Shown here one piece after another: positions 3,523-48,063 of a DNA stretch of 48,063 nt. How positions within the stretch are numbered: the first letter of the stretch is position 1; each line of letters opens with the position of its first letter. The notes below the pieces were generated by a model that had not been told where the DNA came from, did no database searches, and saw only the letters and a program-made list of their open reading frames with translations. The DNA is taken from positions 6,125 to 54,187 of the forward strand of contig NZ_JAIEWN010000023.1 of NCBI RefSeq assembly GCF_019599295.1, written 5' to 3'. Source of the DNA: Oscillochloris sp. ZM17-4. Lineage in GTDB: Bacteria > Chloroflexota > Chloroflexia > Chloroflexales > Chloroflexaceae. A program made the position numbers and the translations under genes.

Positions 3523-3533
3523 ACTCTCTCCTG

Positions 3534-3655
3534 GATTGCAGATTGCAGATTGCAGATTGCAGATTGCAGATTGCAGATTGTAGATTGTAGATTGTAGAGC
3601 GCAGCGCGCAGAGCGCAGATTACGTCCCAATCTACAATCTGCAATCTACAATCTG
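3534..3655. repeat. Inverted GATTGCA heptad arrays between comEA and pyk
   Basis: Nine tandem 7-bp units (six GATTGCA, three GATTGTA) at 3534-3596 face four units of the complement (CAATCTA/CAATCTG alternating) at 3628-3655. Read along the minus-strand genes, GATTGCA-type units follow the comEA stop and CAATCTG units precede the pyk ribosome site. The transcript could fold into a long hairpin around a 31-nt loop. Confidence 0.95.
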
Positions 3656-3661
3656 CAACTC

Positions 3662-15169: not shown

Positions 15170-15256
15170 GAGTTGGGGGTTGGAGGTTGGAGGTTGGCCT
15201 CAACTCCCAACCCCCCAACTCCCAACCCCCAACTCCCAACCCCCAGCCCCCAGCCC
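15170..15256. repeat. Inverted GGTTGGA / CAACTCCC heptad-type repeats
   Basis: After the acylase stop (TAG, then GAGTTGGGGGTTGGAGGTTGG) the sequence turns into its complement with CAACTCCCAACCCCC repeated several times up to the nrdR promoter. Units are 7 bp with some drift. The region is G-rich on one strand and could also form G-quadruplex-like structures, which is an inference. Confidence 0.8.
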
Positions 15257-15259
15257 CTA

Positions 15260-19966: not shown

Positions 19967-20010
19967 GCCCCCCTCTCCCGCATACGGGAGCAGGGGGGCT
20001 CTCTATTTTT
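19967..20010 (+). terminator. Rho-independent terminator of acpP
   Basis: A GC-rich stem (GCCCCCCTCTCCCG with CGGGAG-C-AGGGGGGC) and a CATA loop, followed by TCTCTATTTTT. It is one of the few hairpins here with the classical 3' T-run. Confidence 0.88.
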
Positions 20011-20036
20011 GATTGCAGATTGCAGATTGCAGATTG
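20011..20036 (+). repeat. GATTGCA heptad array after the acpP terminator
   Basis: Three GATTGCA units and a fourth degenerate one begin in the last T of the terminator. They face the reverse-complement array at 20276-20317 across the MITE-like element. Confidence 0.95.
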
Positions 20037-20040
20037 GCTG

Positions 20041-20240
20041 ACTCTCATCAGGGGCTGTTGCAACGTCCTGCGCGCCCCCCTGGCTGGCGACTGACGTCGC
20101 GCCGGCAGGGCGCGCTGCGCCGGGCGTCGGCCTGCGCCGACGCCGGATCCGCCCACGAAGGTGGGCGGTTGGCCGCAGGCCCCCGCGACGCGGCTTCAGC
20201 TGCCAGCGACGTTGCAACAGCCCTGGACTCCCATCAGGGG
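20041..20240. mobile_element. MITE-like element with 16-bp inverted ends
   Basis: Perfect inverted ends GGGCTGTTGCAACGTC (20052-20067) and complement (20208-20223) enclose about 140 bp of nested palindromes, including a 22-bp one at 20123-20144 and CCGCCCAC/GTGGGCGG. Near-identical 14-bp direct repeats (ACTCTCATCAGGGG at 20041, ACTCCCATCAGGGG at 20227) overlap or flank the ends, resembling a target duplication. No transposase is encoded. Fragments recur at 1, 4.47 kb and 45.80 kb. Confidence 0.65.
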
Positions 20241-20264
20241 CCGGCACGTAACGTCGGCGGATCA

Positions 20265-20273
20265 TGGTAAGAT
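20265..20273 (+). promoter_or_regulatory. Extended -10 promoter of tatA-tatC
   Basis: TGGTAAGAT lies between the MITE-like element and the TGCAATC array, so the heptads would sit in the 5' leader of the tat transcript. Confidence 0.5.
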
Positions 20274-20275
20274 AC

Positions 20276-20317
20276 CTGCAATCTGCAATCTGCAATCTGC
20301 AATCTGCAATCTGCAAT
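20276..20317 (+). repeat. CTGCAAT heptad array in the tat leader
   Basis: Six tandem CTGCAAT units, the reverse complement of the array at 20011-20036, ending 22 bp before the tatA start codon. Confidence 0.95.
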
Positions 20318-22229: not shown

Positions 22230-24062
22230 ATGTCGAACCAAGAGCCGACGATCGCGAGTATTCTGCGCGTGCTCGCCCGTGAGTATGATGGGCCGGTTGA
22301 CGAGCGCCAGGTGCTCGACCAGGTGCTTGCGCGTCGCCCGAGCGCGGCGAAGAACCCCTACGCGACGATCCGCGAGCGGCTGCGCTGGGATGGGCTTGTC
22401 CTTGGCTGGCTGCGCCTGAGCCGTGGCACGCTGATGCCGCTGCACGTGGCCCTCCAGGGCCTTCGCTTCCGCTGCATCCCCCGCGCCCGCGATGTCGAGG
22501 CCGGGATGCTGCCGCTCGCCCACATCCAGCCCTTCGCCGGGCTGCGCAGCGCGGTCCTGCGTATGGCTGATGAGGCAGGCGCCCTGATGCCCTTTGTGGA
22601 TCTTGACCTGGACGATGTCGGCGGGCCATCCCTCGCCTCCCCCGGCTTTAACCTGAGCGCCTGGTATGATCGCGTCGGCTTTGTGGCCGGCGATAGCATT
22701 CTGGTGACGGTTGTTGAGACGGATGTGCCGACCCTGCGCATCATCCGCGAGCCCGCCGCCGACGTGCGGCGCGCGGCCATTGATGCCCAGGACGCCGAGC
22801 TGCTCGATGCGATTGTGTCTCGGGTGAGCCGCGCGCAGGTGGCCCTCATCCCCTGCGATGAGGTGGTCCTGCCGATCTTCGCCGCCGCCCCCTGGCGCGC
22901 CGGCTACCCCGGCAGCCCCTGGCAGCACCTCGTCACCCGCGATGGCCGGCTCCAGCTGGTGGACGATATCTTTCTCACGAGCCAGAATCTTCCCTCGCTG
23001 CGCCTCTTCGCCTCCGCCGAGGTCTTTGAGCCGATGCCTGTGCCCGAGGATGATCGGCTCGCCGCCGATACGGCCCTGCTCTCTGAGATCGATGCGCTCC
23101 AGCGCGACCTGCGCCGCTCGCGCGAGCAGGACGCCGACACCGGCCTGTGGAACGGCCAGATCCAGCGGGCATCGGCGGCCTACTCGACCTTTGATTACTA
23201 CGGCGATGAGGCGCACGCCCGCGGCGGCTCGATCAGCTCGGTGGATCGCTACGACGACCTTGATGGGGATGATGACCTTGGCCTCGGCGGCTTTGAGTCG
23301 GACGACCTCCTCCTGGAGGACGATGATTTTGTGCGGCTCCAGGCGGCCCACGATGAGCTGATGTCGGCCCTTCCCCCCGGCGTCGCCGACTCGATCGAGG
23401 CGGCTCGCCCCGAGGAGGCTGAGGTGATCATCGCTCAGCACCTTAACATGCTCCTTGTCAAAAAGCCGCACCTCTTCCCGATCCTCGACCTGAGCGCCGA
23501 CGCGGATGCGAGTGGCCTCGACCCGGTGTCCGAGAGCCTCTTTGACGCGTCAATCTGGCAGGAGGATGTCGATGATGATGAGTGGGGCGAGATCGACGAC
23601 GATCTGCTCGATGCCGACGATGAGTCGGCGAGCGTCTACGCTGAGAGCAGCGACCTGATCGGCCAGTTCCACGACTACCTGTCTGAGCTTGGGAAGAGCA
23701 GCTCCACGGCGCGCGCCCGCTCGCGGAATGTGCTGATCTACGCCGAGTTCCTGGCATCGTACTACAACCGCACCCTCGCCAGCGGAGACTACGCCACCCT
23801 CGACGAGTGCCTGTTCTACCACTACCCGCGCCGGGTGCTGAACACCTCGCCGCGCCAGGTGCGTGAGATCTGCACCTCGGTTAAGCAGTTCTACAGCTTC
23901 ATGAAGGAGCGCGGGGTCATCGCCGATGACCGCTTCGCCCACGCCCTCTGGCGTCGCCGCGACCAGGCCTCCCGCATTGTCCAGATCTATGACCGGATCA
24001 CGAGCGACTCGCCGAACTTTGAGGCGCTCTTCTCCCGGCTGTTCCACCCCTACACTGAGTAA
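22230..24062 (+). CDS. Uncharacterised protein: N-terminal winged-helix-like, acidic centre, recombinase-core-binding-like C-terminus
   Basis: 610 residues, not recognised as any named family. Residues 5-65 (ILRVLAREYDGPVDERQVLDQVLARRP... ERLRWDGLV) have the pattern of a winged-helix domain. A mixed alpha/beta part follows (about 70-290). From about 290 to 490 the chain is strongly acidic with many Asp runs (DDLDGDDDLGLGG, EDVDDDEWGEIDDDLLDADDE) and is probably partly disordered. The last 110 residues (IGQFHDYLSELGKSSSTARARSRNVLIYAEFLASYY... VREICTSVKQFYSFMKERGVI) resemble the helical core-binding (SAM-like) domain of tyrosine recombinases, but no catalytic domain follows. It may bind DNA without cutting it; that is inference. 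ATG 22230 lacks a strong ribosome site. Confidence 0.75.
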   Translation: MSNQEPTIASILRVLAREYDGPVDERQVLDQVLARRPSAAKNPYATIRERLRWDGLVLGWLRLSRGTLMPLHVALQGLRFRCIPRARDVEAGMLPLAHIQPFAGLRSAVLRMADEAGALMPFVDLDLDDVGGPSLASPGFNLSAWYDRVGFVAGDSILVTVVETDVPTLRIIREPAADVRRAAIDAQDAELLDAIVSRVSRAQVALIPCDEVVLPIFAAAPWRAGYPGSPWQHLVTRDGRLQLVDDIFLTSQNLPSLRLFASAEVFEPMPVPEDDRLAADTALLSEIDALQRDLRRSREQDADTGLWNGQIQRASAAYSTFDYYGDEAHARGGSISSVDRYDDLDGDDDLGLGGFESDDLLLEDDDFVRLQAAHDELMSALPPGVADSIEAARPEEAEVIIAQHLNMLLVKKPHLFPILDLSADADASGLDPVSESLFDASIWQEDVDDDEWGEIDDDLLDADDESASVYAESSDLIGQFHDYLSELGKSSSTARARSRNVLIYAEFLASYYNRTLASGDYATLDECLFYHYPRRVLNTSPRQVREICTSVKQFYSFMKERGVIADDRFAHALWRRRDQASRIVQIYDRITSDSPNFEALFSRLFHPYTE

Positions 24063-24063
24063 T

Positions 24064-24130
24064 GTTGAATGTTGAATGCTGAATGCTGAATTGAGCGGCA
24101 TTCAACATTCAACATTCAACATTCAACATT
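24064..24130. repeat. Inverted GTTGAAT / CATTCAA heptad arrays
   Basis: Four units (GTTGAAT, GTTGAAT, GCTGAAT, GCTGAAT) start right after the upstream stop codon; four CATTCAA units plus a partial one end 3 bp before the kinase ATG. The 71-bp gap consists almost only of this hairpin. Confidence 0.95.
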
Positions 24131-24133
24131 ACT

Positions 24134-26224
24134 ATGCACCTCGCCCCCAACGATCTCCTCCAGGGCCGCTACCGTGTGCAGTCGCTGATCGCCCAGGGCG
24201 GCATGGGCGCGGTCTACCGGGCGGTCGATGAGCGCCTGGGCAATACGGTCGCCCTCAAGCAGACCCTGATGAGCGACCCGCAGCTGCGCGCGGCATTTGA
24301 GCGCGAGGCGCGCCTGCTGGCCGGCCTGCACCACCCGGCGCTGCCGGTGGTGAGCGACCACTTCACCGAGGGCGAGGGCCAGTTTCTGGTGATGCAATAC
24401 ATCCCCGGCGACGACCTGGCCTCGATGCTGGCCAGCCGGGGCGGGCCGTTCCCCCTCGCCGAGGTGCTGCCCTGGGCCGACCGCCTGCTCGACGCCCTCG
24501 ACTTTCTGCACACCCAGCGCCCGCCGGTCATCCACCGCGACCTGAAGCCCCAGAACCTGAAGCTCACTCCGCGCGGCGAGATCGTCCTGCTCGACTTCGG
24601 CCTAGCCAAGGGCGAGCTGGGCAGCGGGGGGGCCACCGGCGGGCGCAGCCTCTTCGGCTACACCCCGCAGTACGCGCCGCTGGAGCAGATCCAGGGCACC
24701 GGCACCGACCCGCGCAGCGACCTCTACTCCTTCGGGGCGACGATCTATCAGCTGCTCACCGGCGAGACCCCGCCCGACGCGCTCACCCGCGCGTCGGCGC
24801 TGGTGGCCGGACAGCCAGACCCGCTGCGCCCGGCGCACCTGCTGCGCCCGCAGCTCCCCGCCGCCCTGGGCGATCTGCTCCAGCTGACGATGGCCCAGTC
24901 CGCCGCGCAGCGCCCCGCCTCGGCCGCCGATCTGCGCCGTGCGCTCCAGCATGCCGCTGCCGGGGCGTCGAGCTTCCCGCAGACGCTGATCGCCGCCGGC
25001 CAGGCCGGCAGCGCCGGCCAGCCGACGATCAATATGGCCCGGCCTGGCGCCGCGCCCACTGTCCAGTCCCATCCCGCCGCGCCCGCGGCGGCTGGCCCCA
25101 GCGCGGTAAAGTGGCGGCTGATCGGCGGGGCAGCCGCGCTCAGCGTGGGCGTCCTGGTGGCGGCGGTCTTCTTCCTGCTCCAGCTGTTTATGGGCGGCGC
25201 GGTCGGCGGGCAGGATACCTCGGCGACGGCCATGAGCGCGCTGAAGCCGACCCCCGTGATGATCTCGGCCACTGCGGGCGCTGCACCCGAGCTTGGGGCC
25301 GGGGTGAGCCGCGCAGACCCGCTGCCCGCCGGGGCGACCGCTCAGATCGCCAGCTGGGCGGTGCTTGTCACGGGCGTGACTCGCGGCGACGATGCCTGGA
25401 ACCTGCTCTATGAGACGAACAGCAACAATAAGCGGCCCCCAGAGGGCCAGGAGTATCTGGTCGTCCACGTGCGGGCGCGGGCGCTGGCGGGGAGCGAGGC
25501 GAACCGCGAGCTCTACCCCCGGCTCACCGGCGACAGGCTTATCCTTTACTCGCCGGTGGCCGCCGTGACGCCGAAGCAGCGCCCCGAGGAGTACGCCGCC
25601 GAGAGCGAGCACGACATCGACTTCCCGTATCTGGTGGCGCTCGGCGAGGGCGATCTGATCCTGAATGTCGATGACCTGGCGAGCTCGGACACGCAGCCGA
25701 TCTTCGTCGCGATCGATGAGGGCGCCGCGATCACGGTAGACCCCGCGCTGCGCTCGATCAAGCCCACGTCGCTGGGCGCAGACCCGCGCGAGCCGGCGGG
25801 CATCGGCGAGACGGTGACGACTGAGGACTATGAGGTGACGGTGCGCGAGGTGCTGCGCGGCGACGCGGCCTACCAGCGGCTGATTGAGGCGAATAGATAT
25901 AACGACCCGCCTAAGGATGGCACCGAGTATCTGCTGGCCCTCGTCGAGGTACGTTTCATCGGCGCGAAGGATGAGCTGGTGATGGTCTCTGACAGCAACT
26001 TCTACTCGGCGGTCGGCGACGCGCAGGATGTCGAGGCGACGGCCATCAAGTATACGTCGGTCGTCGAGCCCGAGCCGGACATGCCCTTCTATCTCTACCC
26101 CGGCGGGCAGAGCGCCGGCTGGGTGGCGGTCGCTATCCCCAAGGACACCCCGAGCGCGCTGCTGGTCTTCGGCCCGAGCTTCGGCAGCAGCGACCTGAAC
26201 ACGCGTTACTTCGCGATTGAGTGA
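24134..26224 (+). CDS. Membrane Ser/Thr protein kinase (PknB-like) with duplicated extracellular domain
   Basis: 696-residue receptor-type Hanks kinase. Catalytic domain about 10-270: GGMGAVYRAVDE glycine loop, ATP-binding K42, HRDLKPQN with D136, DFG at 154-156, and GTDPRSDLYSFGATIYQLLTG. An Ala/Pro linker leads to one membrane helix (about 329-350, IGGAAALSVGVLVAAVFFLLQLF). The outside part has two similar halves, each with an Ile/Val-rich strand set opened by an acidic-hydrophobic motif: ASWAVLVTGVTRGDDAWNLL...NNKRPPEGQEYLVV and DYEVTVREVLRGDAAYQRLI...YNDPPKDGTEYLLA. These look like DUF4352-type immunoglobulin-like repeats, not PASTA domains, so the signal sensed is probably different from PknB of Firmicutes. 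Confidence 0.92.
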   Translation: MHLAPNDLLQGRYRVQSLIAQGGMGAVYRAVDERLGNTVALKQTLMSDPQLRAAFEREARLLAGLHHPALPVVSDHFTEGEGQFLVMQYIPGDDLASMLASRGGPFPLAEVLPWADRLLDALDFLHTQRPPVIHRDLKPQNLKLTPRGEIVLLDFGLAKGELGSGGATGGRSLFGYTPQYAPLEQIQGTGTDPRSDLYSFGATIYQLLTGETPPDALTRASALVAGQPDPLRPAHLLRPQLPAALGDLLQLTMAQSAAQRPASAADLRRALQHAAAGASSFPQTLIAAGQAGSAGQPTINMARPGAAPTVQSHPAAPAAAGPSAVKWRLIGGAAALSVGVLVAAVFFLLQLFMGGAVGGQDTSATAMSALKPTPVMISATAGAAPELGAGVSRADPLPAGATAQIASWAVLVTGVTRGDDAWNLLYETNSNNKRPPEGQEYLVVHVRARALAGSEANRELYPRLTGDRLILYSPVAAVTPKQRPEEYAAESEHDIDFPYLVALGEGDLILNVDDLASSDTQPIFVAIDEGAAITVDPALRSIKPTSLGADPREPAGIGETVTTEDYEVTVREVLRGDAAYQRLIEANRYNDPPKDGTEYLLALVEVRFIGAKDELVMVSDSNFYSAVGDAQDVEATAIKYTSVVEPEPDMPFYLYPGGQSAGWVAVAIPKDTPSALLVFGPSFGSSDLNTRYFAIE

Positions 26225-26267: not shown

Positions 26268-27797
26268 ATGACTCCTATGATCACCTACACGATCACTATG
26301 CCCGAGCCGCACACCCACCTCTTCCACGTTGAGGTGGTGATCGACGCCGTGACATCTTCTGTGCTGGATCTTGTGCTGCCGGGGTGGACGCCCGGCTCCT
26401 ACATGATCCGCGAGTACGCCCGCCACGTCCAGGAGTTTGCGGCCCTCGGCCCCGACGGCGCGGCGCTGCCCTGGCGCAAGACGGCCAAGGACACCTGGCG
26501 GGTCGAGGCCGGCGCCGCGGGCGCGGCGCTTGTGCGCTACAAGGTCTACGCCAACGAGCTGACGGTGCGCACCAGCCACCTCGACGCGAGCCACGGCTAC
26601 TTCAACCCCTCGACGCTCTGCATGTATGTGCCCGGCCGCACCGAGGAGCCGCTCGGGGTGCATGTGGATGCGCCCGAGGGCTGGCGGGTGAGCACGGCGC
26701 TGGAGCTAGGGGACAGGGGACAGGGGACAGGGGACAGGGGACGGGAGGTATTTGTCGCCCAGGACTACGACGAGCTGGTGGACAGCCCCTTCGAGTGTGG
26801 GACGCAGCGGGTGCTGCCCTTTACGGTGGACGAGGTGCCGCACGAGATCGTGATCTGGGGGCGCGGGAATGAGGACGAGGCCCGCCTGGTGGCCGACACC
26901 CGGCGGATCGTCGAGGTGCAGCGCGATATGTTCGACGGCCTGCCCTACCCGCACTATAGCTTCATCCTCCACCTGACCGACGGGCGCGGCGGCGGCCTGG
27001 AGCACCGCAACAGCGTGACGAACATGGTCGACCGCTGGACCTTCCGGCCCGAGCGGTCGTATGAGCGCTACCTGTCGCTGACCAGCCACGAGCTGTTCCA
27101 CGTCTGGAACGTGAAGCGGCTGCGCCCGGCGCCGCTCGGCCCCTTCGACTACCGCAGCGAGAACTACACGCGCCTGCTCTGGTTTGTGGAGGGGGTGACG
27201 AGCTACTACGACGAGCTGCTGCTGGTGCGGGCGGGCCTGATGCAGCCGGGGCGCTTCCTGGAGAAGCTGGCCGACGAGATCCTGGCGCTCCAGGGCCAGC
27301 CCGGCCGCCACGTGCAGAGCCTGGAGGAGAGCAGCTTCGACGCCTGGGTGAAGTTCTACCGGCCGGACGAGAACACGGCCAACAGCAGCATCTCCTACTA
27401 CCTGAAGGGCTCGCTAGTCTGCCTGCTGCTGGACATGGAGATCCGCCGGCGCACCGGGGGCGAGCGCAGCCTGGACGACGTGGTGCGCGAGCTGTATGGG
27501 CGCTACCCGATCAGCGGGCCGGGCATCCCCGAGGAGGGCGGCGTGATCGCCGCCGTGGAGGCGGTGGCCGGCGCGCACGACGGCGCGTTCCGCGACTTCT
27601 TCGCCCGCTACATCGCCGGCACGGACGAGCTGGACTACGCCGCCGCGCTGGCCGCCGCCGGGCTGGAGCTGCGCTGGGGCCATCGCCAGCCCCGGGCCGG
27701 CGGGGCCGCGCCGGCCTGGCTGGGCCTGAAGCTGAAGCGGCAGGGCCGCCCTCATCGACCAGCAGCTCCTGGACCCGCCCGGAGACCTCGCTGCTGA
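26268..27797 (+). CDS. M61 family peptidase, truncated within its C-terminal PDZ domain
   Basis: Metallopeptidase of the glycyl-aminopeptidase (M61) family. The N-domain (1-170) starts with ITYTITMPEPHTHLFHVEV; the catalytic part has HELFH at 274-278 followed by VWNVKRLRP, and the third ligand E308 in WFVEGVTSYYDE. Family members continue with a PDZ domain starting near GWLGL. Here AWLGLKLKRQG (about residues 483-493) is present, then the sequence turns into RPHRPAAPGPARRPRC, which is antisense reading of an HlyD gene fragment. The peptidase is therefore a 3'-truncated gene; catalytic residues remain, so it may still be active. A 7-bp repeat (AGGGGAC x5) is translated near residues 147-160. 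ATG 26268 is used; ATG 26277 is also possible. Confidence 0.85.
   Translation: MTPMITYTITMPEPHTHLFHVEVVIDAVTSSVLDLVLPGWTPGSYMIREYARHVQEFAALGPDGAALPWRKTAKDTWRVEAGAAGAALVRYKVYANELTVRTSHLDASHGYFNPSTLCMYVPGRTEEPLGVHVDAPEGWRVSTALELGDRGQGTGDRGREVFVAQDYDELVDSPFECGTQRVLPFTVDEVPHEIVIWGRGNEDEARLVADTRRIVEVQRDMFDGLPYPHYSFILHLTDGRGGGLEHRNSVTNMVDRWTFRPERSYERYLSLTSHELFHVWNVKRLRPAPLGPFDYRSENYTRLLWFVEGVTSYYDELLLVRAGLMQPGRFLEKLADEILALQGQPGRHVQSLEESSFDAWVKFYRPDENTANSSISYYLKGSLVCLLLDMEIRRRTGGERSLDDVVRELYGRYPISGPGIPEEGGVIAAVEAVAGAHDGAFRDFFARYIAGTDELDYAAALAAAGLELRWGHRQPRAGGAAPAWLGLKLKRQGRPHRPAAPGPARRPRC
26708..26742. repeat. In-frame AGGGGAC heptad array in the M61 gene
   Basis: Five exact 7-bp units, translated as GDRGQGTGDRGR. 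They fall in a surface-loop-like stretch between TALEL and EVFVAQDYDELV, so the array looks like an insertion tolerated by the protein. Confidence 0.92.
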
Positions 27798-29452: not shown

Positions 29453-30376
29453 ATGGCTGCGCACGACGGCGAGCTCTTCACCGTGCTGGACGACCGCTTC
29501 AAGGCCTGCTTCAAGGGCAGCGCCCGGCTTGAGCAGCTCTACACCGGCTGCCGCTGGGCCGAGGGGCCGGCCTACTTCCCCGCCAGCCGCTCGCTGGTCT
29601 GGAGCGACATCCCCAACGACCGCATGCTGCGCTGGGACGAGGCCACCAGCGCCGTCGGCGTGTTCCGCCAGCCCGCCGGCTACAGCAACGGCAACACGGT
29701 GGATCGCCAGGGCCGCCTGGTCAGCTGCGAGCACGGCGGGCGCCGGGTCAGCCGCACCGAGCACAGCGGCGCGATCACCGTGATCGCCGACAGCTACCAG
29801 GGCCGCCGCCTGAACAGCCCCAACGATGTGGTCGTCGCGTCCGATGGCGCGGTCTGGTTCACCGACCCGACCTACGGCATCGACAGCGACTACGAGGGGC
29901 ACCGGGCCGAGAGCGAGATCGGCGCATGTTATGTCTACCGGGTGGACGTGCAGAGCGGCGTGATCGCGGTCGCCGCCGACGACTTCGTGCGGCCCAACGG
30001 GCTGGCCTTCTCGCCCGACGAGCGCCGGCTCTACGTGTCCGACACCGGGGCCAGCCACGTGGCCGACGGCCCGCGCCACATCCGCGTCTTCGACGTGGCC
30101 GAGGGCGGGAAGCTCTCGGGCGGCGATGTCTTCGCCACCTGCACCGTCGGCGCCTTCGACGGCTTCCGCCTCGACACCGCCGGCCGGATCTGGACCAGCG
30201 CGGGCGACGGGGTCCACTGCTACGACCCCGACGGCACCCTGATCGGCAAGGTGCGCGTCCCCGAGCCGGTGGCCAACGTGGTCTTCGGCGGGCCGAAGCG
30301 CAACCGGCTCTTCATCTGCGCCACCACCTCGATCTACGCGATCATGCTGCCGGTCAACGGGGTGGCCACGTTCTGA
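29453..30376 (+). CDS. SMP-30/gluconolactonase family protein
   Basis: 307-residue six-bladed beta-propeller, calcium-dependent lactonase type. Family marks: EGPAYFPASRSLVWSDIPNDRMLRWD (first metal ligand Glu), NGNTVDRQGRLVSCEH, LNSPNDVVVASDGAVWFTDPTYG, RPNGLAFSPDERRLYVSDTG and GFRLDTAGRIWTSAGDGVH. The substrate could be gluconolactone, another sugar lactone or an organophosphate-like ester. The strong AAGGAGG supports ATG 29453. The stop codon TGA overlaps the first GATTGTA unit of the following heptad array. Confidence 0.9.
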   Translation: MAAHDGELFTVLDDRFKACFKGSARLEQLYTGCRWAEGPAYFPASRSLVWSDIPNDRMLRWDEATSAVGVFRQPAGYSNGNTVDRQGRLVSCEHGGRRVSRTEHSGAITVIADSYQGRRLNSPNDVVVASDGAVWFTDPTYGIDSDYEGHRAESEIGACYVYRVDVQSGVIAVAADDFVRPNGLAFSPDERRLYVSDTGASHVADGPRHIRVFDVAEGGKLSGGDVFATCTVGAFDGFRLDTAGRIWTSAGDGVHCYDPDGTLIGKVRVPEPVANVVFGGPKRNRLFICATTSIYAIMLPVNGVATF

Positions 30377-30406
30377 TTGTAGATTGGGCGATTGCAGATT
30401 GCAGAT
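30375..30406 (+). repeat. GATTGCA heptad array overlapping a stop codon
   Basis: Four imperfect to perfect units (GATTGTA, GATTGGG, then GATTGCA twice after one extra base). The first G and A belong to the TGA stop. Its inverted partner is at 30482-30534. Confidence 0.9.
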
Positions 30407-30481
30407 TGCCACCCCATCGTCAGCTAATCCACCCTCAGCCCTATACCGGTGCCCAACCAGCTGCATACAATAGAAACAGCC

Positions 30482-30534
30482 CAATCTGCAATCTGCAATC
30501 TGCAATCTGCAATCTGCAATCTGCAATCTGCAAT
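30482..30534 (+). repeat. CAATCTG heptad array before the ABC ATPase
   Basis: Seven tandem units, reverse complement of the array at 30375. A TACAAT box at 30466-30471 just upstream could be a -10, which would place the array in the leader. Confidence 0.95.
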
Positions 30535-32181: not shown

Positions 32182-32198
32182 CGCTGCGTGTCAGCACA

Positions 32199-32260
32199 AA
32201 AGGCAGAAGGTAAAAGGCAAAAGGTAACATGTTACCTTTTGCCTTTTACCTTTTGCCTTT
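32199..32260. repeat. Inverted AAAGGTA / TACCTTT heptad arrays
   Basis: Four units (AAAGGCA, GAAGGTA, AAAGGCA, AAAGGTA), the centre ACATGT, then four complementary units. Arms are nearly perfect. It ends 6 bp before the CCGGAGG ribosome site of the permease gene. Confidence 0.95.
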
Positions 32261-32274
32261 CATCCGGAGGATAT

Positions 32275-33120: not shown

Positions 33121-33906
33121 ATGTCACTCCTCCGCCTGGCCTACCACTTCTTCCGCGTCGGCGCGATGAACGAGCTCCAGTACCGGGCGAACTTCTTCGT
33201 GCAGCTGCTCCAGTCGGCCGTGGCCCTGGCCGTGGGGCTGATCGGCCTGGGGCTGGTGTTTAGCCACACCAGCGCGCTGGCCGGCTGGTCGCAGCCGGAG
33301 CTGCTGGCCGTGATGGGCGTCCACATCCTGATGGGCGGGGTCATCCAGGCGATCATCCAGCCGAACATGATGCGGCTGATGCAGGATGTCCAGCAGGGCA
33401 CCCTCGACTTCGCCCTGACCAAGCCCGAGGACGCCCAGGTGCTGATCAGCGTGCGCGAGATCCGCATCTGGCAGCTGGTGAACGTGCTGATCGGCGCGGC
33501 GGTGCTGGGGGTGGCGATCGTCCAGATCGGCGACCGGGTCGGCCTCGGCGAGGGGCTGATCTTCGGCGTCGCCCTGCTGCTCGGCGGCCTGATGATCTAT
33601 AGCTTCTGGCTGATGCTCACCAGCGTCTCGTTCTGGGTGGTGCGGGTCAACGAGATGGTCAACCTGTTCGAGGGGGTCTACGCGGCCGGGCGCTGGCCGG
33701 TGGGGATCTACCCCGGCTGGCTCCAGGGCCTGCTGACCTTCATCGTGCCGGTGGCCTTCGCGATCACCGTGCCGGCTGAGGCGCTCACCGGCCGGCTGAG
33801 CGGGCTCACCCTGGGCCTGGCCGCCGCCGTGGCCCTCGGGCTGCTCCTGCTGGCCCGCCTGGTCTGGCAGGTCGGCCTGCGCCAGTACTCCGGGGCCTCA
33901 GCGTGA
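33121..33906 (+). CDS. ABC-2 family permease, DUF990 type, subunit 2
   Basis: 261-residue membrane protein, paralogous to the preceding one: LAYHFFRVGAMNELQYRANFFVQLLQSA matches its TQFQYRTANYF region, and MRLMQDVQQGTLDFALTKPEDAQVLIS is the counterpart of the coupling segment. Six hydrophobic stretches. Together the two form the expected heterodimer. The TGA stop overlaps the first GATTGCA unit downstream. Confidence 0.88.
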   Translation: MSLLRLAYHFFRVGAMNELQYRANFFVQLLQSAVALAVGLIGLGLVFSHTSALAGWSQPELLAVMGVHILMGGVIQAIIQPNMMRLMQDVQQGTLDFALTKPEDAQVLISVREIRIWQLVNVLIGAAVLGVAIVQIGDRVGLGEGLIFGVALLLGGLMIYSFWLMLTSVSFWVVRVNEMVNLFEGVYAAGRWPVGIYPGWLQGLLTFIVPVAFAITVPAEALTGRLSGLTLGLAAAVALGLLLLARLVWQVGLRQYSGASA

Positions 33907-33932
33907 TTGCAGATTGCAGATTGCTGATTGCT
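33905..33932 (+). repeat. GATTGCA heptad array overlapping a stop codon
   Basis: GATTGCA, GATTGCA, GATTGCT, GATTGCT; its first bases are part of the permease TGA stop. Here no inverted partner is visible before cydA. A TACAAT at 34004-34009 could be the cydA -10. Confidence 0.92.
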
Positions 33933-34058
33933 GATGATCGCCTGCCCCTGATTTTGACTGGGCTTGCGGATCTGGCCCGGCAGGTGTACATTGCGACCGC
34001 AAGTACAATCGCCCCCTGACACCTCACACCGACCGCCGGGGGATCTTGAGGAGACCAC

Positions 34059-36567: not shown

Positions 36568-36654
36568 AGCCGGCCGAGCGCCAGGTCATACCAACTGGAA
36601 TTGAGCAAGCCGCATGCGCGCCGCCGCCAGAGCACGTTGGAACGCCATGCACGG

Positions 36655-36682
36655 CAATCTGCAATCCAAAATCTGCAATCTG
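36655..36682 (-). repeat. GATTGCA-type heptads after the MFS stop codon
   Basis: Four units (CAATCTG, CAATCCA, AAATCTG, CAATCTG on the plus strand). Read along the minus-strand MFS gene they are GATTG units following the stop, in keeping with the orientation rule. Confidence 0.85.
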
Positions 36683-36690
36683 AAATGGTA

Positions 36691-41309: not shown

Positions 41310-41379
41310 GGCATGCGGCAAAAGGTGATTGCCAGCAGTATCGGTGCATCACCCCTGACGCACCTGCCCCTTACGCGCC

Positions 41380-41419
41380 CCAACCCCAACCCCCAACCCC
41401 TAACCCCCAACCCCCAGCT
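41380..41419 (-). repeat. CAACCCC heptad array carrying the stop codon of the MTHFR-like gene
   Basis: Units CAACCCC/CAACCCCC/TAACCCCC on the plus strand. On the minus strand these are GTTGGGG units that encode the last residues of the gene (GVGG) and include its TAG stop (GGTTAGGGG). The period is 7 with minor drift. Confidence 0.78.
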
Positions 41420-42338
41420 CCTCATACAGTGCCTGCACCAGATCGGCTGAGGCCGCCAGCTCGTCGCGGTGGGTGGAGACGCTCTCGATGTTGACCCCCA
41501 GCGGGATGGACTGGGCCGCCGCGCGCTCGCGGATGGCCCGCAGGTTGGCCCGGCAGATCTGGATGGAGGTGGCGAAGGGCGTCGCCGAGCCCATGATCGC
41601 CTGCTCGACCCCTGGGGCGATGGCGACGCCGAGCCACTTGAGGAAGGTCATTGTCCCCGGCCGGCCGCAGGGCGAGAAGGTCAGGATCACCCGCTGCGGG
41701 GCGACGCCCTCGCGCCGGCACGCCTCGGCGTAGTCGGCGAGCAGCCGCAGGGTCGGCGCGGGGTCGTAGACCACCTGCGAGATGAAGAAGCGGCTGCCCT
41801 GGGCGGCCTTGAGCAGCAGCCGCCGGCTCTCGTCGTACGCGGGCGAGTGGCGCTCGGCGATCGCCACGCCGCCCAGCATCGCCGTGGGCATCTGCTCGCG
41901 GGCCAGCTGCATGGCCCGGTCGACGAACAGCGTGCCCGGCGGCGGAACCGGCACCGACGAGCCGACCAGGATGAGCTGGCCGATGCCGTAGTCCTGGTGG
42001 GCCTCGCGCAGCCAGACGAGCCAGCCGGCCTCGCCGAGCTCGCCGACGCTCTTGTAGGTGATGGCCTGGGCGCCGGTGCGCTCCTGGATCTGGCGGGCGT
42101 AGATGCGCGGGTCGATCGTCGGCTGGTAGGGGAAGGGCCGTGTCTCCTCGGTGCGCCCGCTCTCGTCCTGCACATCGTAGACGACCAGGCCGTCGAGGGG
42201 CAGTCCGCGCACCCGCTCGGCCAGCCGCTCGGCGGCGAGGGCGATCTGCTCGTCCGAGGATCCGGCGCGCGGCGGGGTCGATCCGTAGAGGGTGACAAAC
42301 TGCTGCGGGTCGGTCAGCTTTGCCTGGAGGTTGATCAT
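41400..42338 (-). CDS. Methylenetetrahydrofolate reductase-like TIM-barrel protein
   Basis: 312-residue TIM-barrel protein similar to MTHFR (MetF) family flavoproteins. LVVYDVQDESGRTEETRPFPYQPTIDPRIYA fits the early barrel, followed by LILVGSSVPVPPPGTLFVDRAMQLA and RFFISQVVYDPAPTLRLLADYAEACR, which in MetF is the FAD/folate part with a conserved Gln (FFITQ). LTFSPCGRPGTMTFLKWLGV and GVNIESVSTHRDELAAS close the domain. The opening LYGSTPPRAGSSDEQIA lacks the exact EFFPPK motif of classic MetF. It could be a true reductase or a non-canonical homologue. ATG 42338 has an AGGATA ribosome region. No methionine genes adjacent. Confidence 0.68.
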   Translation of the reverse strand: MINLQAKLTDPQQFVTLYGSTPPRAGSSDEQIALAAERLAERVRGLPLDGLVVYDVQDESGRTEETRPFPYQPTIDPRIYARQIQERTGAQAITYKSVGELGEAGWLVWLREAHQDYGIGQLILVGSSVPVPPPGTLFVDRAMQLAREQMPTAMLGGVAIAERHSPAYDESRRLLLKAAQGSRFFISQVVYDPAPTLRLLADYAEACRREGVAPQRVILTFSPCGRPGTMTFLKWLGVAIAPGVEQAIMGSATPFATSIQICRANLRAIRERAAAQSIPLGVNIESVSTHRDELAASADLVQALYEELGVGG

Positions 42339-42427: not shown

Positions 42428-43921
42428 CTAGCCGTTCAGGTATCCCCGCCGGCGCAGCTCCTCGACGAAGCGGGCGTAGGGCGCGTCGTAGCGGCTGGCG
42501 TCGGGGCGGGGGTGAACCTCGGCGCGGGCGTGGCTCATGGCGCGGGTGGCCGCGCCCAGCCCGGGGTGCGCCCCGGCGGCAGCGGCGATCACCGCCGCGC
42601 CGAAGGCCGCCTCGACCTCGCGGGGGACGAGCAGCGGCCGGCCCAGCACGTCGGCGCGGATCTGGAGCCAGATGGGGCTGCGCGCGCCGCCGCCGGCCGC
42701 GTGGACCGGCCCGTCAACCGCGTAGCCGAGCGCCTCTAGCTCGGCGAAGGCCAGCCGCTCCAGGTAGGCCACGCCCTCTAGAACTGCCGTGTACGCGGCC
42801 TCGCGGCCCGCGCCCGCGCCCAGCATGAAGCCCTCGGCCTGGGGGGCCACAAAGGGGAATCGCTCGCCCCGTCCCTCCAGCGGGTAGCAGATCGCGCCGG
42901 ACGGCGTCAGCGCGGCGGCCCGCGCGTCGAGGGCGGCCAGATCCTCGCCGGGGAAGCGGGCGGCCAGGGCGGCCCCGCCGGTGCTGCTGGCGGCCCCCGG
43001 CAGCCAGTGGCCGTCCGGGTGGCGGTGGGCGTACACCCGGCCCTGCGGGTCGCGCGGGAGCTGGGCGCTGACGCCCTTGAGCACCAGGGTGGTGCCGAGC
43101 ACGCTGAGCCACTGGCCGGGCGCGGCGGCCCCGCCGGCGATCTGGGCGGCGCAGCCGTCGCTCATGCCGGCCACGACGGTGGCCCCGGCAGGCAGCCCGG
43201 TCGCCTCGGCGGCGGCGCGCGAGACCTGGGCGATCGGGCTGGCCGGGGCCACGACGCGCGGCAGCTTCGCCAGGGGCAGGCCGAGCGTCTCTAGCAGCTC
43301 CTCCGGCCAGCGCAGCGCGATCAGGTCGTAGCCGCTCTTCAGGGCGTGGCTCCAGTCGGACGTGGCGTAGTCGCCGGTCAGCCGGCCGACGACAAGGTCG
43401 GCGGCGTGGCAGATCTGGGCGGCGGAGGCCAGCTGCTCTGGCATATGCCGGCGCAGCCAGAGCAGCTTGGGCAGGCCGAAGGAGGCGTCGAAGCGGTAGC
43501 CGAGCCGCTCGCAGAGCCCGGCGGCGGCCAGGTTCAGGTCGGCGGCCTCCTGGGCGGCCCGGCGGTCGCGGTACATGATCGCCGGGGCGACGGGGCGGCC
43601 CCGCGCATCCAGCAGGCAGATCGTGCCCGAGGTGGCGGTGACGGCCAGGGCGGCGATGCGCTGGGCCTCGGCGCCGAGGCTGGCCGTGGCCGCGCGCAGG
43701 CAGGCGACGGCGGCCAGCCACCAGTCGTCGGGGCGCTGCTCGGCGCGCCCGCCGGGGCCGTCGGCGGTCTCCAGCGGCGCCGAGGATCGGGCGCGCACCT
43801 CGCCCCCCGCGTCGGCGACGACCACGCGCACGCCCTGGGTGCCCACATCTATGCCGGCGAAGAGCGATCCGCTGAGGGCTGAGGGCTGAGGGCTGAGGGC
43901 TGAGGGCTGCGTGTTGAGCAT
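42428..43921 (-). CDS. FGGY-family carbohydrate kinase (xylulokinase-like)
   Basis: 497-residue two-domain sugar kinase of the ASKHA fold. FAGIDVGTQGVRVVV holds the phosphate loop with D25; D255 in VAGMSDGCAAQIAGG is the catalytic base position; LSVLGTTLVLKGVS and HAAGGGARSPIWLQIRADVLGRPL (adenosine motif) follow. The latter is characteristic of XylB-like members. Substrate may be xylulose or another ketose. The N-terminus is odd: residues 5-17 (QPSALSPQPSALS) are encoded by a 7-bp repeat, translated as a 7-residue repeat. No later start codon precedes the phosphate loop, and AAGGGA lies 9 bases before ATG 43921, so the repeat does seem to be translated. Confidence 0.88.
   Translation of the reverse strand: MLNTQPSALSPQPSALSGSLFAGIDVGTQGVRVVVADAGGEVRARSSAPLETADGPGGRAEQRPDDWWLAAVACLRAATASLGAEAQRIAALAVTATSGTICLLDARGRPVAPAIMYRDRRAAQEAADLNLAAAGLCERLGYRFDASFGLPKLLWLRRHMPEQLASAAQICHAADLVVGRLTGDYATSDWSHALKSGYDLIALRWPEELLETLGLPLAKLPRVVAPASPIAQVSRAAAEATGLPAGATVVAGMSDGCAAQIAGGAAAPGQWLSVLGTTLVLKGVSAQLPRDPQGRVYAHRHPDGHWLPGAASSTGGAALAARFPGEDLAALDARAAALTPSGAICYPLEGRGERFPFVAPQAEGFMLGAGAGREAAYTAVLEGVAYLERLAFAELEALGYAVDGPVHAAGGGARSPIWLQIRADVLGRPLLVPREVEAAFGAAVIAAAAGAHPGLGAATRAMSHARAEVHPRPDASRYDAPYARFVEELRRRGYLNG
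43871..43908. repeat. GCTGAGG heptad array inside the FGGY kinase start
   Basis: Five exact units plus a partial one. On the coding strand they read CCTCAGC, giving the QPSALSP peptide repeat at the N-terminus. Confidence 0.95.
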
Positions 43922-43949: not shown

Positions 43950-43958
43950 TGCTACAAT
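43950..43958 (+). promoter_or_regulatory. Extended -10 promoter of the NUDIX operon
   Basis: TGCTACAAT; its last bases AAT flow straight into the CAATCTG repeat array. The predicted start point is about 32 nt before the GTG start. Confidence 0.6.
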
Positions 43959-43980
43959 CTGCAATCTGCAATCTGCAATC
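43955..43980 (+). repeat. CAATCTG heptad array before the NUDIX gene
   Basis: Three units and a partial one in the leader, same orientation relative to the gene as at pyk, tatA and the ABC ATPase. Confidence 0.9.
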
Positions 43981-47934: not shown

Positions 47935-47952
47935 GATATATTTGTTAGACAA

Positions 47953-47984
47953 GATTGCAGATTGCAGATTGCAGATTGCAGATT
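47953..47984 (-). repeat. GATTGCA heptad array upstream of the dipeptidase
   Basis: Four exact GATTGCA units on the plus strand; read along the dipeptidase gene they are TGCAATC, the orientation seen before start codons. Here the promoter lies downstream of the array, so it is not in the leader. The last 80 bases of the window show no gene. Confidence 0.93.
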
Positions 47985-48063
47985 TGGTGCAATAGAATGC
48001 CATTCACGGCATCAAACTGTAAAGCAACCTGAAACCTTGGCTTAGCGCGAATAAGCGCTGGGT

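Follow-up and report, generated by a model that had tools for sequence, protein, structure and literature searches.

Cyanobacterial STRR sequences are short heptad tandems dispersed through intergenic regions. They come from another phylum than the DNA described here, whose pyruvate kinase finds its best match (93%) in Chloroflexales bacterium ZM16-3, and they differ from the repeats of our source genome in that paired, polarised arms are common in the latter. The analogy with STRR, drawn in the first-pass annotation of this DNA, is fair, and the nearest published match that we found is the work of Rehm et al. (2015; PMC4692102). In its passages on repeat content, this work describes G-rich heptads, GGGAATC in Xanthomonas and GGGGAYT in Nostoc, which are mostly intergenic with a preference for four units, and places the G-strand within 50 bp after stop codons or, in antisense, before start codons. 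In the same passages, two Xanthomonas genomes have 70 and 75 convergent inverted pairs and Nostoc few, length and sequence vary between close species, quadruplexes are discussed, and one heptad type is given per genome. In Beggiatoaceae, TAACTGA is described as an abundant intergenic heptad that favours one orientation and mostly lies immediately upstream of starts (MacGregor, 2015; PMC4679880); judging from the passages that describe it, this is one start-bound heptad whose repeats are direct, one inverted case apart, unlike the arrays here. Heptads were said to be the commonest long simple sequence repeats in scattered genomes, and slippage was proposed as their source (Mrazek, 2007, as cited in PMC4679880); the passages of published work that deal with the heptad excess of scattered bacterial genomes ascribe it to slippage or quadruplexes (PMC4679880; PMC4692102). 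Among the open-access papers listed, none dealt with heptad hairpins in Chloroflexales.

The arrays described here share with the repeats in those passages of Rehm et al. (PMC4692102) the period of seven, the intergenic excess, the polarity (154/194) and the convergent inverted pairs (71 vs. 5 of 84). They differ from them in that 39 families share the rule, the largest of which has no G-run, in that unrelated heptads occupy one site in sister species, and in that copies lie in frame within genes. The known rule is extended here to many heptads, including G-run-free ones, and new evidence is given on the origin of the tracts. What we add consists of heptad differences at one site in sister species, in-frame tracts inside genes, a preferred starting phase, a preferred length of 31-34 nt, and array-free samples from some close relatives.

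The window, i.e., the whole stretch of DNA that was analysed (48,063 nucleotides from Oscillochloris sp. ZM17-4; Table 1), belongs to a draft genome of 6.69 Mb in 182 contigs (G000), of which 1.24 Mb was examined on contigs picked as carriers of listed matches. Genes were called in G000 with our own simple codon model and no standard annotation; as a check on these calls, Pfam matches were obtained for 18 of the 20 window genes tested. The names of three genes with internal tracts (a histidine kinase, a cyclase, and an isopropylmalate-type dehydrogenase) were read from the sequence with no family search. The array scan on other genomes gave 101 arrays in the sister genome G005, 31 in G007 and 29 in G016. 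P-values are descriptive, many tests having been picked after inspection of the data.

Table 1. Heptad tracts of the window (positions counted from its first nucleotide).
Feature	Position	Strand	Remark
GATTGCA/GATTGTA tract, left G-rich arm, pyk-comEA spacer	3534..3598	+	
CAATCTR tract, right arm	3628..3658	-	minus-strand RNA fold 3528-3660, -65.3 kcal/mol, z -9.2
GTTGGRG tract, left arm	15172..15197	+	GTCGGRG there in the sister genome G005
CAACYCC tract, right arm	15201..15257	-	left gene edge is nearest; against the nearest-edge test
GATTGCA tract 3' of ACP gene	20011..20036	+	
TGCAATC tract 5' of TatA-like gene	20276..20317	-	
AATGYTG tract, left arm	24061..24091	+	absent from G005
CATTCAA tract, right arm	24099..24130	-	RNA fold 24055-24135, -41 kcal/mol, z -10.8
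AGGGGAC tract, in frame within M61 peptidase gene	26708..26742	+	GGGGGCT tract in the same interval in G005
Interrupted GATTGCA tract 3' of SMP-30 gene	30375..30409	+	
CAATCTG tract 5' of ABC ATPase gene	30482..30534	-	
CAAAAGG tract, left arm, near-perfect palindrome	32197..32227	+	scan read 32200-32260 as a single array
CCTTTTG tract, right arm	32232..32260	-	RNA fold 32190-32265, -45.2 kcal/mol, z -11.3
GATTGCW tract over stop of ABC permease gene	33905..33935	+	
Degenerate CAATC tract adjoining MFS gene stop	36654..36686	-	
CCCCAAC tract over 3' end of gene 41400-42338 (minus)	41378..41416	-	
GCTGAGG tract close to called start of FGGY kinase gene	43871..43909	+	
CAATCTG tract 5' of NUDIX gene	43955..43980	-	
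GATTGCA tract, start side of M19 dipeptidase gene, then repeated tail	47952..47984	+	

All ten GATTGCA arrays of the first-pass annotation are present at the positions given for them or within a few bases; the one at 30375 consists of two short runs with an interruption between them, and that at 36655 is degenerate (below the scan cut-off and judged by hand). A two-unit GATTGCA pattern allowing at most two mismatches matched the window 38 times, against a mean of 0.25 and a maximum of 2 after shuffling. The names given to the neighbouring genes hold (pyruvate kinase, ComEA-like HHH/SLBB protein, ACP-like and TatA-like proteins, SMP-30, ABC ATPase, ABC permease, MFS, NUDIX, and M19 dipeptidase). 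The arrays had been said to read GATTGCA after stops and TGCAATC before starts, and this orientation was found in ten of ten cases with the genes assigned as they had been then, and in eight of nine by a stricter test based on the nearest gene edge, in which the G-richer strand is the reference and the 5' edge of the tract must face the nearer gene edge. The tract at 43955 fails this test, since the start of the left gene is 33 nt away and NUDIX 67 nt; the array at 47953 has no right neighbour gene in the window. Arrays of other heptads, absent from the earlier list, make the same figure in the window at 15172/15201, 24061/24099, and 32197/32235, and further single tracts lie at 26708 (inside a gene), 41378, and 43871.

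In the 1.24 Mb of G000, the scan found 252 arrays of period seven, while periods 4-6 and 8-12 gave 0-29. They fall into 39 heptad families, led by GATTGCA (76), ACAGGGG (36), AATGTTG (35), and GGGGGTT (20). The arrays are not equally common inside and outside genes: 199 of them are mostly noncoding, and their density is about 15 times higher outside genes than inside; the other 53 are at least half within called genes, some merely at gene ends, though 80% of the sample is coding.

Orientation was scored over the same sample with all families taken together. Of the 194 skewed intergenic arrays, 154 turn the 5' edge of their G-richer strand toward the nearer gene edge and 40 do not (binomial P 6e-17); two more arrays are unskewed. 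The counts by spacer type (obeying:against) are 60:14 for ++, 47:9 for --, 17:3 for +- and, the least, 30:14 for -+, and the rule weakens to 51 vs. 27 in spacers of at least 200 nt. Tracts facing a stop lie at a median distance of 1.5 nt from it (69/84 within 15 nt), and those facing a start at one of 27 nt; the 3' tract edge lies 15 nt or less from a gene in 6/194. Neighbouring arrays less than 400 nt apart (n = 84) are arranged G then C in 71 cases, C then G in 5, and otherwise in 8, and in 66 of the 71 G-then-C pairs the two arms have the same heptad or heptads one base apart. Arrays without an opposite one within 400 nt (n = 100) have a weak partner on their 3' side in 34 cases and on their 5' side in 2. 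Hairpins with a gap of at most 60 nt number 61 and come from 13 families, and heptad palindromes of the G000 sample are G-arm-first by 69 to 1 (convergent spacers 7:0, divergent 10:0, tandem 41:0, inside genes 11:1). Because the rule holds in all spacer types and the heptad palindromes inside genes are G-arm-first too, it is blind to gene direction: it follows strand polarity, and there is no stop/start rule as such. The polarity described in the first pass is thus real, while its form, after stops and before starts, is a by-product.

A G-arm-first hairpin reads alike on both strands, so that this symmetry alone leaves a role in RNA possible. Selection might keep hairpins before starts or at the ends of transcripts because they protect or tune mRNA, only the G-arm-first arrangement being tolerated or useful. 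This is consistent with 5' edges that adjoin stops, with the intergenic excess, and with the folding of five window segments, where strong folds (z -5.8 to -11.3) were predicted for all but one, a single arm with z 0.2. We nevertheless judge it improbable, because tracts lie in frame within genes, divergent spacers also carry G-first hairpins (10 to 0), heptad sequence and presence vary between sister species, some relatives' samples are array-free, and most arrays of G007 obey the rule without any partner. The window gave no Rfam match at the gathering score. Among the functions proposed earlier, directional insertion is favoured by heptad turnover and by the in-frame tracts in genes, and transcript termination or stability less so.

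The tracts are also regular in length and in phase. Arrays of 31-34 nt make up 108 of the 252 and those of 23-26 nt, a smaller peak, another 46; about four to five units per tract are preferred. The typical form is (A-B)nA with a fixed start, a majority tendency in four families. With each array counted once, GATTGCA tracts start at the G or A of GATTG in 67/80 (17/19 of those in genes), and the preferred start is taken in 24/37 AGGGGAC tracts (4/4 in genes), 27/42 AATGTTG tracts (3/6 in genes), and 8/11 AGGGTAC tracts; the phase lock is weak in the GGGGGTT family. In 25 of 64 stop-facing tracts, the first two tract bases complete a stop codon begun by the base just before them, so that selection may account for some of the phase lock there. 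Mere overlap with the stop codon was rejected as the explanation of the fixed start, since the same start is found in start-facing and in-gene tracts. The 3' ends are phased too, and the outer edge is clearly tighter in just 2/8 families of G000 and 1/4 of G005, where the inner edge of GATTGCA tracts is tighter than the outer.

G-quadruplex formation, as suggested for GGGAATC repeats, could in principle drive abundance, unit number, and orientation, and the G-runs of AGGGGAC, GGGGGTT, and AGTCGGG would suit it, as would the preference for about four to five units. However, GATTGCA, the largest family, and AATGTTG have no run of three G and yet show similar length, phase, and polarity. Quadruplexes are thus not needed, and we consider it very unlikely indeed that they are the driving force.

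The rule is seen in relatives as well. It holds by 63 vs. 19 in G005 (17 of its 101 arrays in genes), where neighbours less than 120 nt apart are G then C in 18 cases, C then G in 3, and otherwise in 6. In G007 it holds by 23 vs. 2 (4 of 31 arrays in genes), mostly for partnerless arrays; the count in G016, 8 vs. 5 (13 of 29 in genes), does not decide. Hairpin partners are few in both of these, which belong to other genera (3/29 in G007, 1/27 in G016). No array was found in samples of 100 kb of G002, 80 kb of G008, and 20 kb of G006, and three-unit GATTGCA was matched in 17 of 99 relatives. G101 gave 2 arrays in 158 kb and G100 gave 7 in 40 kb, too few to judge cyanobacteria.

Among 175 listed spacers orthologous between G000 and G005, at a lower score cut-off, 24 carry arrays in both genomes, 14 in G000 only, 27 in G005 only, and 110 in neither. 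Different heptads occupy one site between conserved flanks at C1:31743, C1:296914, and window 15170 among the spacers listed, and the heptad also differs inside genes at window 26708 (the M61 peptidase), C1:378493, and C1:54992. At C1:327498, the gene of G005 has a non-heptad palindrome in place of the heptad tract of G000, and at C1:56850 the identical heptad is kept in both. Whole families change as well: AGTCGGG heads 25/101 arrays in G005 and forms no family in the G000 sample, and ACAGGGG accounts for 36/252 arrays in G000 vs. 1/101 in G005. ZM16-3 has the comEA-pyk hairpin, an Oscillochloris MAG has a degenerate form of it, and in Ca. O. fontis it was not seen. In a comparison of the dehydrogenase loop that leaves out G002 and G009, G000 and G005 carry a GATTGCA hairpin, G001 has it in short form and G004 in decayed form, an arm of AATGTTG type stands in G003, and G006, G008, and G016 have no hairpin there.

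Polarity may not be specific to heptads, since palindromes of other sequence lean the same way. Outside genes in G000, non-heptad palindromes are G-first by 234 vs. 36 (11:14 inside genes), and in a non-redundant set with genes included by 97 vs. 34. Ordinary palindromes elsewhere are G-first by 57:27 in G101, 16:9 in 73 mixed loci (some from Chloroflexota), and 4:2 in 50 kb of E. coli, and may thus reflect a mild bias that is general. Part of the polarity may thus come from a general process, such as RNA selection or the template switching of Monttinen and Loytynoja (2022; PMC8794818), whose passages on hairpin origin have perfect stems made and repaired at the DNA level, with loop inversion and a G-first asymmetry. 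Perfect palindromes at 27 places in the G000 sample share the centre AGC-gaa-GCT or AGC-ttc-GCT, the arms of some being near-copies of one another and those of others unlike.

A process of this kind might be joined to slippage at seven-base spacing, which would make the tracts, while template switching between inverted copies would make and repair the arms; intrastrand switching that corrects toward the 5' base would favour G (and T) in the 5' arm. Copy number does vary at orthologous tracts, the form at the dehydrogenase site is short in G001 and long in G000, and variants are mirrored between arms 24 times vs. 12.7 expected, with the register chosen to fit. The G-first lean of non-heptad palindromes points the same way, as do the excess of T over A in heptad arms (50 to 14) and the argument, in those passages of PMC8794818, that template switching makes hairpins and the G-C/U-A asymmetry of stems. 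So does the loop of the hairpin at C1:453866-453965, which appears inverted relative to its orthologue in G005, an outcome that recombination between the arms, or template switching, would produce. On the other side, three-unit GATTGCA has 976 placements in G000 (with up to one mismatch and overlaps included), against none for the reversed control, and the same heptad at so many unrelated sites would not arise from local seeds. The starting phase is preferred across unrelated flanks, unrelated heptads occupy both arms at one site, and the excess of T over A vanishes for all palindromes together (177 to 177). Hairpins made by template switching, as those passages describe them, do not supply heptads common to many loci (PMC8794818). 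Slippage alone is not expected to yield a preferred phase, inverted pairs, and replacement at the same site, and local slippage seeds alone were set aside because they leave the common heptads and the phase unexplained. Slippage combined with template switching is in our judgement a rather unlikely source of these tracts, though one that carries real weight.

The tracts could instead be mobile palindromic elements, of the Rickettsia palindromic element or REP kind, that move as finished hairpins. In-frame copies within genes, which the Rickettsia elements also have, and presence or absence between species are in keeping with this. So are the ATGCGTG hairpins at C1:314120 and C2:80989 of G000, which have a common loop and both flanks in common, and four GATTGCA tracts with a common tail; a common loop and flanks, which one shared element sequence of the Rickettsia kind would have, were seen just in this pair and this tailed subfamily. 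The two ATGCGTG hairpins are thus copies of one longer element that was moved whole. As a general case, a whole transposing hairpin was rejected on the ground that most loops and flanks are unlike: any given 12-base word within 150 nt recurs beside 4 of the 252 arrays at most (the 8 bases next to each array being masked, and loops shorter than 28 nt judged by eye). Six-base loop words and nine-base flank words are common to 40/43 loops and 19/61 hairpins, mostly as single short matches in a test that is too loose. Arrays are often solo in other genomes, and the Y1 transposase (PF01797), which REP sequences have as TnpA-REP, has no match in G000, a genome 98.6% complete. Movement as a finished hairpin is therefore quite improbable as the general origin.

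We prefer, tentatively, to regard the tracts as footprints of directional, template-dependent writing of heptads at the DNA level by a putative enzyme. Differing loops, a common arm heptad, and a mostly fixed phase together point to directional synthesis on a short template, a combination that neither copying of finished hairpins nor growth from local seeds would give, and writing in place explains the differing loops and the same-site replacement better than does the movement of a finished hairpin. In such a process, a chromosomal 3' end would be extended by copying a short internal A-B-A' template into (A-B)nA, for which telomerase and DRT10 are models. Extension of both 3' ends of a lesion would give a G-arm-first inverted pair, and selection would then clear most copies in genes. 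A fuller version, in which an active writing system with an exchangeable heptad template extends chromosomal 3' ends, leaves fixed-phase (A-B)nA tracts, G-arm-first hairpins, and interstitial telomere-like scars, and changes its template between species, is a doubtful proposition. The preferred phase, the unrelated heptads at one site, and the array-free samples of close relatives suggest that something writes the tracts; the writer, if real, would amount to a bacterial activity that adds repeats to the chromosome, and array-rich vs. array-poor members of one genus offer a route to the responsible gene.

No writer gene was identified, and we take such missing pieces as serious points against writing. 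The tandem-repeat products that DRT10 makes from A-B-A' resemble the tracts here, although this is protein-primed cDNA that the passages describing it do not place in the chromosome (PMC12632851). No DRT10-like gene was identified in G000, where RVT_1 (PF00078) gave two genes with three matches, just a DGR-like reverse transcriptase and one neighbouring Cas1. In the first (L195, contig C111), as read from sequence, the reverse transcriptase gene stands beside an FGE-sulfatase-like gene and resembles a diversity-generating retroelement; in the second (L206, contig C26), a reverse transcriptase-like gene is directly followed by a Cas1-like gene. RVT_1 has no match in array-rich G007 or in G001 and three matches in array-free G002, so that the presence of a reverse transcriptase does not track the arrays. 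Ku was found in none of 12 genomes; classical joining of two extended ends would thus be unavailable, and Ku-dependent joining was ruled out. A scan of viral contigs gave no relative, and its query frame was unsupported by later gene calls. Also counted against writing are the few partners in G016 and G007, the fact that 3' ends are phased as well, the weak phase lock of GGGGGTT, the stop codons formed at tract starts, the G-first lean of non-heptad palindromes, the 40 rule-breakers among 194 arrays and the weaker rule in long spacers, the tail common to four GATTGCA tracts, and the moved ATGCGTG element.

Other short elements lie among the tracts. The tail that follows four GATTGCA tracts (window 47952-48040, C1 and C13 of G000, and C1 of G005) contains AAGCAACCTGAAAC and, from its sequence, looks like a separate short element; relative to the tailed copy of G005, C1:355950 of G000 looks like an empty site beside CTTA. 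Between the GATTGCA arms at window 20037-20275 there is a segment of about 240 bp with inverted ends of its own (around CTGTTGCAACGTC), perhaps a nested MITE. Directly before the tract at 20011, a GC hairpin with a T-run, seen by eye at window 19971-20010, appears to be the true ACP terminator. Further short interspersed repeats, at L042 (3465-3554 and 11422-11537) and L036 (7492-7561), have many copies in G002, G003, or G005.
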